The notes under the pieces were generated by a model, which worked only from the letters and a program-made list of their open reading frames with translations, did no database searches and was not told where the DNA came from. This document shows positions 46,902 to 59,651 of a stretch of DNA of 64,000 nt, piece after piece (positions within the stretch are counted from its first letter, which is position 1; every line of letters starts with the position of its first letter). The translations under genes were made by a program, and so were the position numbers. The stretch is from Verrucomicrobium sp. BvORR034 (GTDB taxonomy: Bacteria; Verrucomicrobiota; Verrucomicrobiia; Verrucomicrobiales; Verrucomicrobiaceae), in the NCBI RefSeq assembly GCF_000739635.1, contig NZ_BATQ01000091.1, forward strand, positions 1-64,000. The letters are read 5' to 3'.

Positions 46902-47074
46902 TGATTCCGCGACTGTGGGACTGTTTTGGATCATGCCGTTGGCGTGGGCTGCCGCAATGAAACACCAGATCATCGTCATCCTGCTAACCTAAGGCTCATG
47001 CGCCAACCGCGATTGACACGCGATGGGCTGTCGTGGAGACTTGCGTTTATTCCACGCCAAACCCAACTCCTGCC

Positions 47075-48451
47075 ATGATCCCACGGTGCCGATTCTCCTC
47101 ACTCTGTCTCGCAGCGGGGCTGCTGATGGGGCCATTTACTCAGGCATGCTCCCAGTCCAGCGGGGCTGAGAGCAGTGCGGGGGCGACTGAGCCGGGGCGC
47201 GCTCTGGATGAACTCGCGGGCGGGGACCAGCTCTGGGATCTGACGCCGGACCAGTTTGAAGCGAAGTTCAAACCCCTGCGGTTTGACTGGCTTTCGGCCA
47301 GCAAGGAGCAGGCGAGATTCTTTGGCTCCAGCTACGTGCTCTGGGGGCCACAGTTGAGGGTGCCGGAGGCGGTGGCGGAGTTTCAGACGGGGAAACTGGC
47401 GCGCGTGAACTTCTCCATCTTCAATCGCGGCGACAGTTCTTCGCTGGCGGGGAATCGCGAACAGTTTGAGAAGCAGGTAGAAGACACCAAGACCTTCATC
47501 TCGTCCAAGCTGGGCGTCCAGCCAGTGGAGCGGGGCAAGGATTCCCAAAGTGCCGTCAAGGCCATGGGCTGGATGTGGATGAAACCGCCGACGGCCTACC
47601 TGCTGGAGTACTCCTATCAGAAAGAGATGAAGTCTCGCGGGCAGGAGTTCCGTCCAGAGTTTATCCGGCTGCGCGTGGCGGAGGTGCCGAAGCAGCAGGG
47701 GCTCCTGGTAAATGGCTCGACGGGAGCTGCTGGCGTGACGCGATCCAGTCTGGCGGCCAACATCACCCGGGAGACCACGGGCGACGTGGTGATCAAGAAC
47801 GTGCCGATGGTGGATCAGGGGCCCAAGGGCTACTGTGCCGTGGCCACCACCGAGCGGGTGTTCCGCTACTATGGCATTCCGGTGGACCAGCACGAGATGG
47901 CCCAGGTGGCGAACACCGGGCAAGGGGGCGGCACCAGCCCCAGTGAAATGCTGGAGGCCTTGGAGAAGCTGGAAGCCCGGCTTCGCGTGCGCGTTCGCGC
48001 GCTGGAGAAGTGGGACTACAAGGAGTTCAGCAACATGATCTCGGACTACAACCGCGAGGCCAAACGCCGGGACAAGCGCGAGATCAATCTGAACAACATG
48101 GCCGTCATCAATATCGGTGACATCTACGCGTCAATGGATGCAGATTCACTCAAAGTGAGCCGGACGGAAAAGAACAAGGCAGGCTACAGCAAGTTTCAGC
48201 GCGCCGTGACGGACACGATTGAAAAAGGAGTGCCGCTCATGTGGGGTGTGCAGCTTGGCCTTTACAAAGAGCCCGGTATTCCCCAGAGCTTTGGCGGTCA
48301 TATGCGCCTGATCATTGGCTACAACGCGAAGACCAGTGAGATTCTCTATTCCGACTCCTGGGGCGCGGAACATGCGCTCAAGCGGATGCCGATGGACAAC
48401 GCCTGCGCCATGACCACCGGGTTGTATTACATTGAACCGATGGCGAAGTGA
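47075..48451 (+). CDS. C39-like cysteine peptidase, exported
   Basis: A 458-residue protein; the ATG at 47075 is used because it opens a signal peptide, with FTQACSQSSG a possible lipobox cysteine. The N-terminal half is a beta-rich domain of unknown type. The C-terminal half is a papain-like C39 domain: VPMVDQGPKGYCAVATTERVFRYYG (C254 after the oxyanion Gln), GGHMRLIIGY (H409) and YSDSWG (D427). C39 domains cleave double-glycine leaders in bacteriocin transport, but stand-alone exported members such as this have no known substrate. A 460-base repeat-rich gap follows. Confidence 0.82.
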   Translation: MIPRCRFSSLCLAAGLLMGPFTQACSQSSGAESSAGATEPGRALDELAGGDQLWDLTPDQFEAKFKPLRFDWLSASKEQARFFGSSYVLWGPQLRVPEAVAEFQTGKLARVNFSIFNRGDSSSLAGNREQFEKQVEDTKTFISSKLGVQPVERGKDSQSAVKAMGWMWMKPPTAYLLEYSYQKEMKSRGQEFRPEFIRLRVAEVPKQQGLLVNGSTGAAGVTRSSLAANITRETTGDVVIKNVPMVDQGPKGYCAVATTERVFRYYGIPVDQHEMAQVANTGQGGGTSPSEMLEALEKLEARLRVRVRALEKWDYKEFSNMISDYNREAKRRDKREINLNNMAVINIGDIYASMDADSLKVSRTEKNKAGYSKFQRAVTDTIEKGVPLMWGVQLGLYKEPGIPQSFGGHMRLIIGYNAKTSEILYSDSWGAEHALKRMPMDNACAMTTGLYYIEPMAK

Positions 48452-50489: not shown

Positions 50490-53023
<2,534 letters not shown>

Positions 53024-53210: not shown

Positions 53211-54053
53211 ATGCCCATCCTTGCCGCGTTCGCTGCTGCCCAAGCGTCTTCCGTGACTGCAACCGCGGGGCTTGAGGCGCATCTGAAGGCCATGAATCTG
53301 CCCGCGCTGACCGCCTGTGGTGTGATCATTCTTTGGGCCTTCATCTGCTGGATCCGGATGTTGGTGACCGCTTCGCAGTTGCGCCGATGCCGGAAGGCGG
53401 ATGATGCGTTTCTGAAAGCACACCAAGACGCCTCGCATAGCCTGGAGGTGTTTCAGGATGGCTTGACTTTCGATGGAGCACCCAGGCATGCGGTGTACCT
53501 GACCTCCGCGCGGGAGATGGCGTTTCACCTGATGGGCTCGGATTCCGTGGACAAGAACTTCTCCATTCGCCTGAGAGCGGCGGGCCGCATCTCACCCAGC
53601 CAGATGGACTCCGTGCGGAAGGTTCAGGAACGAACGGCGGATTTCACCTCGCGGGAACTGGGGGATGGGTTGGGAGATGGATCGGTGGACATTTTGCCTT
53701 TCCTGGGGCTGGTGGCAGCACTGGTGAGTGTGGTGGTGGATGTGTCTGGCGGAGTCACCGGCTCGCAGTTGATCGTGTCTGCCGTCACCCCCATGGCGTT
53801 GGGAGTGGTTGTCTTTATTCCGCTGATGTTGTGGCACAACGCCCTGGTGCAGAGAGTGCGGGACCTTGTCGGGGAGTTGGGCGACTTTGCGGTCGAGCTG
53901 GCCACTCAGCTTGACCGGGCGTTTGTGGATCATCGCAAGCCCTTGGAATCGTTGCCGAGTCTGGGTTCCATGTTGCCCATGGAGGGGCCTACCTTTGCGC
54001 TGCCTCCCTCCGACACCTCCCGTTCGATTCCCTTGATGTCGGCGGCTCCCTAA
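53211..54053 (+). CDS. ExbB/TolQ-like membrane protein lacking the usual proton-path residues
   Basis: A 280-residue protein with the topology of ExbB/TolQ: TM1 about 31-52, a cytoplasmic loop, TM2 about 159-180, TM3 about 187-208. ILPFLGLVAALVSVVVDV and SAVTPMALGVVVFIPLMLWHNAL align with the TM2 and TM3 motifs of ExbB. By eye alignment, E. coli ExbB Thr148, Glu176 and Thr181 correspond to Ala, Ser and Met here. It is immediately followed by ExbD-like and TonB-like genes, which supports the family call. A long C-terminal tail (about 235-280) is unusual. Energisation by the proton gradient is doubtful. Confidence 0.72.
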   Translation: MPILAAFAAAQASSVTATAGLEAHLKAMNLPALTACGVIILWAFICWIRMLVTASQLRRCRKADDAFLKAHQDASHSLEVFQDGLTFDGAPRHAVYLTSAREMAFHLMGSDSVDKNFSIRLRAAGRISPSQMDSVRKVQERTADFTSRELGDGLGDGSVDILPFLGLVAALVSVVVDVSGGVTGSQLIVSAVTPMALGVVVFIPLMLWHNALVQRVRDLVGELGDFAVELATQLDRAFVDHRKPLESLPSLGSMLPMEGPTFALPPSDTSRSIPLMSAAP

Positions 54054-54054
54054 G

Positions 54055-54474
54055 ATGCCTTGGAACGCCCGGATTGCTGCCATGTTGGACCTGCGAACTC
54101 CCAGTCATCTCCGCCTTCGTCCCGTGACGTTTCGTCCGCTGGCGTTGGCGGTTTCGCTATTCGCGTTGATGGCGTGGATCGTTGCGCTCGCAGTTCCGGG
54201 TGGTGGTCTCGGTGAGAGAACCCCGTTGCCAGCGCCCACAGCAGTGGTGGATCTGACTCTGGAGGCGGATGGTTACGCCATTCTGAAGGACATCACTTTT
54301 CCGGTGGATGAGTTGCGAGACCAGCTGACACAACTGGCTGGTAAGGGCGGCATGCCCGCCGTGCGCGTGAAGGTGCCGCATGATCTGGATCTGGAGGTGC
54401 TGCTGAACGTGATGAACGTGCTGAAGGCCTGTGCGGTGCCGCAGACCTCGGTGGATGTGCGGACGGAACCATGA
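54055..54474 (+). CDS. ExbD/TolR-like protein without the membrane aspartate
   Basis: A 139-residue bitopic protein with one membrane segment (about 27-48) and a periplasmic domain of ExbD type: VVDLTLEADGYAILKDI, then FPVDELRDQLTQL, VRVKVPHDLDLEVLLNVMNVLK and a terminal beta strand. ExbD and TolR carry an essential Asp in the membrane segment; here the segment FRPLALAVSLFALMAWIVAL has none. The ATG lies one base after the ExbB-like stop and the end overlaps the TonB-like start by four bases, so the three are a tight operon. Confidence 0.75.
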   Translation: MPWNARIAAMLDLRTPSHLRLRPVTFRPLALAVSLFALMAWIVALAVPGGGLGERTPLPAPTAVVDLTLEADGYAILKDITFPVDELRDQLTQLAGKGGMPAVRVKVPHDLDLEVLLNVMNVLKACAVPQTSVDVRTEP

Positions 54475-55085
54475 GCCGTGCAGGTCCCAGTCCCGGAGTG
54501 CAGATGCTGATCGGCGTGCTGACCGCGAATGTCGCGATGGCCCTGGCATGGGTGGGCTACCGCATGGTGGAGACCAGAGAGGATGTTGCGAGGAACACGG
54601 CGGGTCAATGGCTGCCGCCAGGGAACTTCGCCTCCTCGATGTTGCCCCTGTCCGCTGGGTTGGGGCGGGAGCGGAAGCAGGTCATGGTCCGTCGCGTGTC
54701 CCCAGTCGTTTTGTCTGAGCACGAGCGCATTCTCGGCATGTTCCAACTGCCGGGGTACACCTTGGGTGAGCAGGGAGGAAAGACCCTGCTGGACGAGCTG
54801 ACGGAGGTGCTTAAGGCCGTGGATCACCGGATGCGGACCGTGCTGATGGAGCAATGGGTGCCGCCGGTGACACGCCTGCCTGCTGCTCAGAAGGAGGCGG
54901 TGCTCAGCGTCGTCCTGGGCCGCGATGGCCGGGTCGAGAGACGCTATTTTGTGCGTCCCTCGGGCAGCGATGCTCTGGATTCCTCCATTGTGGCGGCGGC
55001 GAGCAGGGTGGGGCAGGTGCTGCCCCTGCCGCAGGCCTACGGCAACGCTGAGTATGAGCTGAATGTGACGTTTCGGCTGGAGTGA
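54471..55085 (+). CDS. TonB-like protein with an N-terminal anchor
   Basis: A 204-residue protein with one membrane segment (about 11-30), a middle region with charged helices (HERILGMFQLPGY ... LLDELTEVLKAVDHRMR) and a C-terminal domain like TonB/TolA: AVLSVVLGRDGRVERRYFV, DSSIVAAASRVGQVLPLPQ, EYELNVTFRLE. The proline-rich spacer of classical TonB is absent. It starts within the end of the ExbD-like gene (ATGA overlap). It may transfer force or simply act as a scaffold between membranes, depending on whether the ExbB/D pair is active. Confidence 0.68.
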   Translation: MSRAGPSPGVQMLIGVLTANVAMALAWVGYRMVETREDVARNTAGQWLPPGNFASSMLPLSAGLGRERKQVMVRRVSPVVLSEHERILGMFQLPGYTLGEQGGKTLLDELTEVLKAVDHRMRTVLMEQWVPPVTRLPAAQKEAVLSVVLGRDGRVERRYFVRPSGSDALDSSIVAAASRVGQVLPLPQAYGNAEYELNVTFRLE

Positions 55086-55123
55086 TGCGTTGAAGTTCCC
55101 GCTGGGCTGGGTAAGCTGGCCGG

Positions 55124-57723
55124 ATGCCCCTGACCTTTGCGCTCCGAATCTTGCCCTATGCCTGCACGGCAGTGCTGTGGGTTGGAGGGATGGCTTCGGG
55201 CAACGCGGCGCCTCCGAGTCCGCCTGCTGCGGCCAAGGTCGAACTGGCAGCGCGGGAAGAGTATCAAGCAGCGCTCAAGGCATCCAGCGAGGGGCTGCAT
55301 GAGGAGGCGGCGCTCAAGTATGAGCGCCTGCTCAAGGACAAGTCCTTGAGCAAAAAGGAGGAGGCGCAGGTGGGTGAACGCATGGTGGATGCACTGGTGC
55401 GGGCCCGGAACTCCACCAAGGCGCTTCTGGCCCTCTCGCTCTTCAAGGTACCGGAGGCGACCTTCTGGAAGGGGCAGTGCCTGATCCTGGAGCACAAGTT
55501 TCGCGAGGCTGAGGAGGCCCTGAGGACCTGCCTGAAAGAGAGCACTCGCTATGAAGCGGAGGCCCGGCTTGCTCTCGGTCAGGTGTTGGTCGCGCAGGGC
55601 AGGGAGATCCCCGGGCGCAAGGAGTTCAAGGAATTGATGGAGAGCCCCAATGCCGGGATCGCGCGGATCGCCAGCCTGTATTGGAACGAATCGGAGATCA
55701 TCGCCTCTCGTGCACCGAATGTGCTTCGTCGTTTCGGTCAGGAGCGCAAGGATATCGAAACGGAGTTCCTCAAGGCCTGTGCCTGGTTGAAAACGGGCGA
55801 CGGCAAGCAGGGGGAGATTCTGCTGCGCCGCATCCTGCCGCTCACCACTCTCAACAAGGATCTGCAAGATGCTGCGACCGTACGGCTGGCAGAGGCCTAT
55901 GCGCTGCAAGGTCGCCAGCGCACGGCAGAGCGCGAGCTGGTGCGTTTCCTCGAACACGCGCCGGAGAGTCGCTATTATGAGCAGGCGTTTGCTTTGCTCC
56001 TGGATGTGACCGCGCCTGAGGAGACGGATGCGAGGGACCGGCTCATCGCCTGGTCCGCCATTCCCCAGCCTCGTGGACGGCATGCGCTGGCGTTGTTTTA
56101 CCTTGGACAGTGGCTGGCGGATCACAACCAGCCTGCCCAGGCCGTCGGGTTCTTGGAAACGTTTTTGTCCCTGCATTCAGGACATGTCCGTGAGGCAGAA
56201 GCCCTCCGGAATCTCATGAGCCTCTACGGCACCATGGGGGCCGATCGTCGCGTGCTGGAACTGGCCAACGTCTGGCGCAGCCGGTTCGGCACCGGCGGGG
56301 AGGATACGGTGGACTATCTCACCGCGATGATCCGGTACGCACGGAAGGAGTACCGCGAAGCCTCAATGTTGTTTGAGAAATCCGCGACGTCTGCGGTGGA
56401 TGCCGTGCAGGGACAGAGGGCCATGTACAATGCTGCCGCTGCGGCGTTTCTGGGGGGGACAAGGCACGCTATCAGAAGTGCCTGAAGCAACTGGCCACCA
56501 CCCAGATACGTGAAGAGGATGAGGATGCGGCGTCAAATTCCGAAGGGCCCGGCACCGGGCATCAGGTGAAGGAAGATGTGGATGCGGCGGGACGCGATGC
56601 AGTTTCTCAACTGCTGCTGGAGAAGGCGCTCCATCTGGCGGCCAAACATGATCCGACGGCAGAGGCGGCGTTGCAGGACTTTTTGCGGGAGCATGCCAGC
56701 CATCCACGGGCGGTGGAGGCCCATCTGGCGCTGGCCGAGCTTTGTCTGCTGGACATCCCGGTGCGTGCCAAGGCCGCATCGCTCGCGCTCGATGTGGCAA
56801 AGGCAATCCCGGAACTGGCTGACGGATGGAAGGAGAAGATCGACTACACGCGCGTGTGGCTGCACGAGGCTGCGGAGGACTTCCCAGCGCTGACAACGTC
56901 GGGACTGCAGTATCTGGAGACATGGCGCATGTCCCAGCGCCGGGATCAGGTGCGGATGAAGGTGGCCCAGGCCTACTACCGCATGGATGACTTCACCAAT
57001 GCCGGGATTCAGTTCGAGGAATTGGTGGAAGAACAGACTGAATCTCCCTACGCAGAGGTCGCGCAGTTTTATGCGGGCAAGGCGGCGATGGCCATGCTAA
57101 CCCCGGCGGGCATGGAGAAGGCGATCTCTCTTTGGGAAGAAGTGGTGAACCGCAATGGCTCGCTGGGCCGTGAGGCACAGCGCCAGCAGGCTCTGGCGAA
57201 AAGAAGGCAGGGCAATGAGGTGGACGCGCTTTTGGTGGTCAACAGCCTGCTTACCAGCAAGCCCGCGCCTGCAGGTGATGAGCTCTTTTCCCTGCTGATT
57301 GAAAAAGGGGAGCTGAGCATGCTTCTCGCTCGGAAGGATCCCAAGCACCTGGATCACGCCAAGGAGGTCTTCACCTATATCACGCAGGATACCACGGCCA
57401 CCCGTGCCTGGCGCGGACAGGCGGGCTACCTGCTGGCCCAGTGTCAGCTCCAGGCGGGCCGTTCCGCAGAGGCCCTGGAAGCATGCAATGATGTGGTGGA
57501 GTCCTGCCTGAACCCCACCATCTCCCGGACGCTGACCCCGCAGGAGTATGTCTGGCTCTACCGCGCCGGGTTCGCGGCGCTCGAGGTGCTTAAAGGCCGC
57601 CACGAATGGGAAGCCGCTGCCCGCCTGGCCGATCGCCTCGCCTCCGCCGGAGGAGATCGGTCGGAGTCCGCCAAGCTGGAGGGGACGCGGATCCGCCTGG
57701 AGCATTTTATCTGGGACAAGTGA
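55124..57723 (+). pseudogene. Long TPR protein of the ExbB/D/TonB-like operon, broken by a one-base frameshift
   Basis: A secreted helical-repeat protein read in two frames. The first part (55124-56485) has a signal peptide ending GNAAP and TPR-like helices up to YNAAAAAFLGG, then meets a stop. Restoring one G to the seven-G run at 56452-56458 continues the frame through DKARYQKCLKQLATTQ to the stop at 57723, giving about 866 residues. TPR-type stretches include LVRFLEHAPESRYYEQAFALLL and VEAHLALAELCLLDI. It resembles YbgF/CpoB or BamD-like periplasmic TPR partners, which fits a Tol/Ton-like operon. Intact sequence on both sides favours a sequencing error. Confidence 0.78.
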
Positions 57724-58571: not shown

Positions 58572-59651
58572 ATGCGCGACCACGTCAAACTCTTCATTCC
58601 CGGACCCGTAGAAGTCTCTCCCGACACCTACGCGGCCATGTCCGCTCCGATGATTGGTCATCGCAGCAAGGATTTCCAAAACCTGTACGCAGAGATTCAT
58701 GAGAAGCTGCAGGTCCTCTTCGGAACCAAGCAACTGGTGTTTCTGAGCACTTCCTCCGCTTTCGGCGTCATGGAAGGCGCGGTGCGGAACCTGGTGAAGA
58801 AGAAGGTGCTGAACTGCTGCTGCGGCGCGTTCTCCGACAAGTGGCACGACGTTTCCCTCCGTTGTGGCAAGCAGGCGGAGGCCTTGAAAGTGCCCTGGGG
58901 CCAGGCCATTCTTGCCTCCCAGGTCGAAGAAAAGCTCGCCACCGGCGAGTTCGACACCGTGACCCTGGTACACAGCGAGACCTCCACGGGCGTCCTCAGC
59001 CCGGTGGCAGAGATCGCCAAGCTCAAGGCGAAGTTTCCGGATGTGCTCTTCATCGTGGACACGGTTTCGTCCTTCACGACGGTGCCGATGAACTTCGATG
59101 AGTTGGGCATCGATGTTCTTCTCACGGGCAGCCAGAAAGCTTTCGCCATGCCGCCCGGCCTTGGTCTCTTCACGGCCAGCGAAGCCGCCTACGAGCGCGC
59201 CGCCACGGTCGCAGACCGCGGCTACTACTTCGACTTCCTTGAGTTCAAAGCCAACGGCGAGAAGAGCATGACGCCCAGCACGCCGTGCATCTCCCTCATC
59301 TACGGCCTGCGTCACCAGCTCAACAAGTTCTTCGCCGAAGGGCTGGAGAACCGTTATGCCCGTCACGCCCGCCTCAACGGCCAGGTGCATGATTGGGTGG
59401 CCAAGCACGGCTTCGAGCACTTCGCCGCTGAAGGCTACCGCACGAAGGGCCTGACCTGCGTGAAGAACAACAAGGAGATCGATGTCTCTGCGTTCGTCAG
59501 CAACCTCAAGAAGAAGCACAAGCTCGTCATCGACGGCGGCTACGGCAAGATCAAGGGGACGACGTTCCGCATCTCCAACATGGGTGACGAGAGCGATGAA
59601 TCCATCGGCGAGTTGATCGCAGCGCTGGATGACACGCTCGGTTCCCTGTAG
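58572..59651 (+). CDS. Class V aminotransferase, alanine/serine-glyoxylate type
   Basis: A 359-residue PLP enzyme of the class V aminotransferase family (serine-pyruvate, alanine-glyoxylate or aspartate aminotransferase of the purple type). It shows LFIPGPVEVSPDT, FLSTSSAFGVMEGAVRNL, TLVHSETSTGVL, FIVDTVSSF and the PLP lysine in LTGSQKAFAMPPGLG (K189). It ends with GTTFRISNMGDES. Substrate cannot be decided; the related phosphoserine aminotransferase is possible in a lineage that lacks SerC. Monocistronic: repeat sequence upstream and a strong terminator downstream. Confidence 0.92.
   Translation: MRDHVKLFIPGPVEVSPDTYAAMSAPMIGHRSKDFQNLYAEIHEKLQVLFGTKQLVFLSTSSAFGVMEGAVRNLVKKKVLNCCCGAFSDKWHDVSLRCGKQAEALKVPWGQAILASQVEEKLATGEFDTVTLVHSETSTGVLSPVAEIAKLKAKFPDVLFIVDTVSSFTTVPMNFDELGIDVLLTGSQKAFAMPPGLGLFTASEAAYERAATVADRGYYFDFLEFKANGEKSMTPSTPCISLIYGLRHQLNKFFAEGLENRYARHARLNGQVHDWVAKHGFEHFAAEGYRTKGLTCVKNNKEIDVSAFVSNLKKKHKLVIDGGYGKIKGTTFRISNMGDESDESIGELIAALDDTLGSL

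Follow-up and report, generated by a model that had tools for sequence, protein, structure and literature searches.

Members of the MotA/ExbB/TolQ superfamily, which includes the subunits of the Tol-Pal and Ton (ExbB-ExbD-TonB) systems, are generally treated as ion-driven motors. Three residues that come together in the pore (PMC12583513, PMC12215075) matter in Escherichia coli: the TolQ variants T145A and T178A and the TolR variant D23A are reported to fail in the presence of deoxycholate (PMC12583513). The histidine through which TolA contacts the motor lies in an SHLS motif (PMC12204202). Here, we analyzed a 64,000-nucleotide stretch of the Verrucomicrobium sp. BvORR034 genome (contig NZ_BATQ01000091.1, positions 1 to 64,000; hereafter the window), which carries a tolQ-tolR-tolA cluster with replacements at pore and membrane positions of all three proteins. 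The cluster is probably a remnant of Tol-Pal, in which a proton-uncoupled TolQ scaffold has been kept by selection, has been exapted twice, and most likely acts at the division site. Its three genes are:

53211-54053, forward strand: tolQ, 280 amino acids (aa), three-span; TolQ orthologue with Ala and Met at two pore threonine positions
54082-54474, forward strand: tolR, TolR/ExbD-like, one-span; Asp of the membrane segment replaced; periplasmic domain scores at the Pfam cut-off for ExbD
54471-55085, forward strand: tolA, 204 aa; TonB_2 domain retained, short linker; membrane His replaced by Asn

Identity of the cluster and its pore residues

The window TolQ has drifted so far that the Pfam MotA_ExbB model misses it. 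It showed no Pfam match at E <= 10, was absent from the eight MotA_ExbB (PF01618) matches of its own genome, and reached the TIGR02796 (tolQ) model at E 6e-4 with 19.6 bits, below the threshold of 221; its identity as TolQ therefore rests on its orthologues. A single-sequence search of the PDB likewise returned one chance-like match (E 2.1). When the protein was used as the query in a survey of 141 genomes of the order, a relative was found in 76, and the surroundings of all 76 were typed with profiles. Canonical members of its own family were matched at E 5e-32 to 5e-40 and share with it a family-specific C-terminal tail (FVDHR..LPSLG), and the canonical matches are mostly the tolQ of a tolQ-tolR-tolA-tolB-pal operon, such as that at L043, whose five proteins match MotA_ExbB (91 bits), ExbD, TonB_2, PD40, and OmpA. 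A family profile that includes the window protein matched TolQ best among solved chains (E 2e-29), followed by ExbB (6e-22). Given that the orthologues lie in tol operons and that the family profile scores solved TolQ over ExbB, we assign the cluster to Tol rather than Ton, and the ExbB-ExbD-TonB label of the original prediction, which had been made from the sequence of the window, becomes TolQ-TolR-TolA by orthology. A Ton or nutrient-uptake system was rejected on the same orthology; no receptor was seen among the scanned neighbours. The profile search suggested alongside that prediction succeeded for TolA, which exceeds the cut-offs of TonB_2 (PF13103; 37.6 bits against 22) and TIGR01352 (29.7 against 27.1), was borderline for TolR, which scores exactly the gathering value of ExbD/TolR (PF02472; 25.4 bits against 25.4, and 24.9, below it, in the genome scan), and failed for MotA_ExbB.

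The figure of 76 is a lower bound, since some genomes (e.g., G003 and G012) have TolB without a TolQ match, indicating that the query is incomplete. Not counted among the 76 are the long paralogues L071, L072, and L251 (second matches in G031, G076, and G011) and L250; L191-L193 have no tolQ within the stretch taken, and G138 (L190) was counted as canonical despite its weak match (E 1.6e-6). Within the window's family, a TolQ match and a strong TolB match are both absent from G131 and G116; G099 and G119 gave a strong TolB without a TolQ match. All 76 genomes fall in families f1, f3, f4, and f6 and none in f2, where Tol may have been lost or be too distant for the query.

The tight packing described earlier holds for the open reading frames (ORFs) at 53211-54053, 54055-54474, and 54471-55085, the last two overlapping by ATGA. 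The supposed fourth gene, for a tetratricopeptide repeat (TPR) protein, here consists of two ORFs. The tolR frame is readable from 54055; we prefer the start at 54082, which matches where relatives begin in the alignment. In TolQ, the loop between the second and third transmembrane segments (TM2 and TM3) is shortened, and the cytoplasmic loop and C-terminal tail are retained.

By alignment, the residues of the window TolQ that correspond to Thr148 and Thr181 of E. coli ExbB are Ala and Met, respectively, as had been read by eye. Both positions keep Thr in 47 of the 76 genomes (one with Ser at 181), and at least one is lost in the other 29, here called degenerate, with varied and mostly hydrophobic substitutes (A, F, L, M, V, I, C, S, G). 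A TolR with its Asp accompanies 45 of the 47 threonine-keeping genomes (43 next door, L164 on re-reading, and G021 on another contig, L214); of the remaining two, the L054 stretch runs into the end of its contig, and G105 has no TolR that we could find. A linked TolR with Asp was found in none of the 29 degenerate genomes. In the three that form the window's genus, this Asp is replaced by Leu (window), Trp, or Val, which confirms the reported lack of aspartate in the ExbD-like membrane segment, and in the other 26 no TolR was found beside tolQ. Run over these 29 genomes and G105, a TolR profile gave at best 82 bits, against 100-165 in five controls.

The changes extend to TolA, in which the membrane His of the SHLS motif is Asn in all three members of the window's genus. 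Of 21 other rows, 19 have His, and the two exceptions are G105 and L227. The window TolA, at 204 aa, is also shorter than those of the 21 other rows (234-401 aa). As both other genomes found of the genus share the residue losses, these do not reflect a sequencing slip. The earlier reading also placed Ser at the Glu176 position; the residue is indeed Ser, but we dropped it as evidence of lost coupling, since none of the 47 threonine-intact relatives has Glu there. As a separate observation, G105 (L047/L215) is a possible intermediate, with the TolQ threonines, TolB, and Pal kept, no TolR found, and a TolA lacking the His.

Partners, selection, and two clades

TolB was detected at E 4e-120 or better in all 32 canonical genomes of the family. 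In the seven degenerate genomes of the family, the best TolB matches reached E 1e-4 to 1e-8, in frames of ~1000 aa in the four of the seven with frames listed, and that of the window genome (E 6.6e-6) lies in a 1036-aa frame. No Pal-like gene was found in the tol stretches of these seven genomes. The stretches read from genera g2, g5, and g6 keep tolQ and no other tol gene; it is divergent there from the M50 protease that also adjoins it in the window. In genus g5 (L041, L042), the gene after tolQ encodes a zinc-ribbon-like protein of 381-388 aa, with three spans predicted and Pfam matches below the cut-offs.

The window tolQ is under strong purifying selection. Ratios of nonsynonymous to synonymous substitution (dN/dS), computed by the Nei-Gojobori method among the three genus members, were 0.052-0.075 for tolQ, 0.030-0.059 for the M50 protease gene, and 0.030-0.063 for the enolase gene, indicating that tolQ is kept about as tightly as a neighbour. 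Judged by sequence identity, what is conserved in the degenerate family TolQ has shifted. Between genera (in pairs that are not independent of one another), the cytoplasmic loop of the degenerate family members has a median identity of 42% and their TM2-TM3 region one of 23%, TM2-TM3 being the higher in 0 of 17 pairs. The corresponding medians for canonical members of the family are 51% and 52% (144 pairs, TM2-TM3 higher in 78), and in canonical genomes of other families TM2-TM3 reaches 80% against 31% for the loop, being higher in 99 of 99 pairs. In a second degenerate group, the medians are 47% in TM2-TM3 and 45% in the loop (TM2-TM3 higher in 97 of 231 pairs).

This second group comprises 22 genomes whose tolQ has no adjoining TolR (L063-L065, L067-L070, L073, L175-L187, and L189); TolB lies beside tolQ in four of these loci (L063, L068, L069, and L070). 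In an rpoB tree of 20 genomes, the seven degenerate family members form one clade (support 100/99) and the three sampled members of the second group another (99/98), both apart from the canonical rows, placing the losses in two separate clades. The claim that proton-coupling residues have been lost is upheld and gains further strength from the TolA His-to-Asn change, from the TolB and Tol-linked Pal that were not found, and from this second clade.

In 20 of the 22 second-clade loci, the gene after tolQ encodes a single-span protein (the stub) whose membrane segment contains a His; L187 is a twenty-first case, with the same start in one frame, and no stub was found in L065. Across the alignment of 20 stubs this His is the sole invariant column, and the C-terminus often carries an R.IRP-like stretch. 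None of ten stubs scanned against Pfam reached a cut-off, and a comparison of the stub profile with the TolA profile aligned His with His at a probability of just 23%. We tentatively suggest that within one order the Tol motor became a non-motor twice, as a TolQ oligomer that has neither a working axle nor a proton path and is kept by selection, and that one clade may have made of it a two-part platform of degenerate TolQ and a TolA-like stub whose His would take the place of the motor-contact histidine. If such a two-part membrane platform is real, the papers that we found on the MotA/ExbB/TolQ superfamily describe none like it. A second tolQ copy (L250), degenerate too, occurs in G078 of the second clade.

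Under the scaffold reading, an ancestor in the family would have had Tol-Pal and would then have lost TolB and the Tol-linked Pal, along with the residues that handle protons. TolQ would have been retained under purifying selection as a membrane scaffold independent of the proton gradient, in the window's genus together with TolR and a shortened TolA, and would most likely act at the division site. There are precedents for motor-free action: overproduced E. coli TolQ is reported to block division without TolR or TolA and to bind FtsN in a two-hybrid assay (PMC3831626), and filamentous phages are stated to have no apparent need for proton-gradient coupling of Tol (PMC7391070). If the proton path has been lost naturally and the protein kept by selection in two clades, the proposed non-motor role of TolQ in division would stand apart from its motor role, and organisms with degenerate TolQ would offer a chance to study the former alone.

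Neighbouring genes

The features flanking the three tol genes are:

51908-53023, reverse strand: M50 metalloprotease with CBS domains, the divergent neighbour of tolQ in seven of seven degenerate family genomes
55124-56485, forward strand: TPR gene, first part, ending after the frame break
56566-57723, forward strand: TPR gene, second part, in another frame than the first
58572-59651, forward strand: class-V aminotransferase; a same-start gene adjoins the TPR gene in L137, L147, and L151

The original prediction counted a single long secreted TPR protein as the fourth member of an operon. Neither part of that view was upheld. The gene is split into two ORFs by a frame break in a G run at 56450-56463, and both congeners (L039, L040) have one 866-aa frame; both parts show few nonsynonymous differences relative to synonymous ones (low pN vs pS), so the break is either very recent or a slip in sequencing, and we rejected it as a sign of decay. 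TPR relatives at E <= 1e-10 are spread over 123 of the 141 genomes, and none of the printed ORFs in 20 TPR stretches from other genomes matches a tol query (blastp, E <= 1e-3). With this spread and a score of 34-35 bits against the TIGR02795 cut-off of 90, a fourth subunit or CpoB was discarded, and the distribution marks the TPR gene as an order-wide neighbour by descent rather than a Tol member. Its co-transcription with tolA, 38 bases upstream, is possible.

Enolase lies two genes away from tolQ in the window. A DivIC gene is located upstream of tolQ with two genes between them, which is a weak hint at most, and a Peptidase_C39-like protein is encoded at 47033-48451. A scan for promoters and terminators found 0 and 2 sites, respectively, compared to 0.8 and 3.7 in shuffles, and no tandem repeats were found.

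Alternative explanations and known systems

Several observations weigh against a retained, uncoupled scaffold. Both tolR (dN/dS 0.10-0.18) and tolA (0.16-0.23) evolve faster than tolQ. OmpA-domain proteins unlinked to tol occur in all seven degenerate family genomes, the window genome having two such proteins (frames of 522 and 405 aa), and a working Pal may thus be encoded elsewhere. The genome-wide TolA search was weak: nothing scored below E 0.1 in g2, g5, or g6, but the true TolA of G021 itself scored E 0.13. A profile built from degenerate proteins (five rows) matches solved TolQ only at E 0.84. The correlation between threonines and TolR rests on two clades rather than 29 independent events. 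It also has its exceptions: G105 keeps both TolQ threonines with no TolR found and a TolA lacking the His, so the tie between threonines and TolR is not strict; L227 has a TolA without His although the TolR Asp is retained; and G004 retains Thr148 in the alignment. Finally, as TolA of the window's genus has lost its His and the second clade keeps one, the two clades may not share a single mechanism.

Four other explanations were considered. TolQ could be a dominant-negative or modulating subunit of canonical ExbB/TolQ pentamers encoded elsewhere in the genome, as the window genome holds eight MotA_ExbB matches (L079-L086) and ten ExbD matches besides tolR, and the regions of TolQ outside the pore are better conserved than the pore. 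We consider this unlikely, however, given that a search of its own genome with the window TolQ (E <= 1e-3) matched the protein itself and no paralogue, and that tolQ in this genus has its own tolR and tolA.

The low dN/dS of tolQ makes a functionless relic in slow decay improbable. No stop lies inside the match in 28 of the 29 degenerate genomes, and the TGA of G004 is the end of a 304-aa frame (L049). Slow decay would fit the stepwise loss of partners (no TolB or linked Pal found in the seven family members, and in g2, g5, and g6 neither TolR nor TolA next to tolQ) and the broken TPR frame of the window genome, yet the TPR gene is a neighbour by descent with low pN vs pS in both parts.

We hold a similarly low opinion of the possibility that the degenerate protein is an ancient TolQ paralogue rather than the Tol orthologue. 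It draws on the M50 protease that adjoins the degenerate tolQ, as in 14 M50 stretches of other genomes (12 canonical, G003, and G078 of the second clade) no printed ORF matches TolQ. Yet no degenerate genome was seen with a canonical copy as well, 28 of the 29 having a single match and the second match of G078 being itself degenerate, and the family-specific tail is shared with canonical TolQ. Moreover, the tolR-tolA-tolB-pal genes of G021 (L214) lie beside a short one-span gene and a gene read as enolase, the gene found two places from tolQ in the window.

Lastly, a complex still driven by ions through other residues or by another ion, which the retained TolQ, the TolR periplasmic domain, and other polar residues in the proteins might allow, is very unlikely, since two TolQ threonines, the TolR Asp, and the TolA His are all replaced in the window's genus, TM2-TM3 is less conserved than the cytoplasmic loop, the threonine substitutes are varied and mostly hydrophobic, and no pointer to another driving force was found.

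The probable uncoupled TolQ scaffold can be compared with described systems. A search for papers on Tol genes of Verrucomicrobiota, on their loss, and on TolQ that is degenerate or has no TolR gave no description of such a system, judged from titles, opening lines of abstracts, and text passages in a library with few subscription journals. The nearest account (PMC12204202) reports tolQ-like genes without tolR paired with vWA genes, also from Verrucomicrobia. That pair resembles the present case in having a TolQ relative without TolR, but keeps the threonine ring and an Asp-bearing helix, both absent here, and no vWA gene lies beside the window tolQ. With the Ton system the window cluster shares superfamily and gene order, whereas its orthologues sit in tolQRAB-pal operons and no receptor is found among the scanned neighbours. 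From Tol-Pal it differs in the missing pore threonines, TolR Asp, and TolA His, in its short TolA, and in the TolB and Tol-linked Pal that were not found; it is nevertheless Tol-Pal that the window matches in the tolQ-tolR-tolA order, the orthology of TolQ, the periplasmic domain of TolR, and the TonB_2-type C-terminus of TolA.

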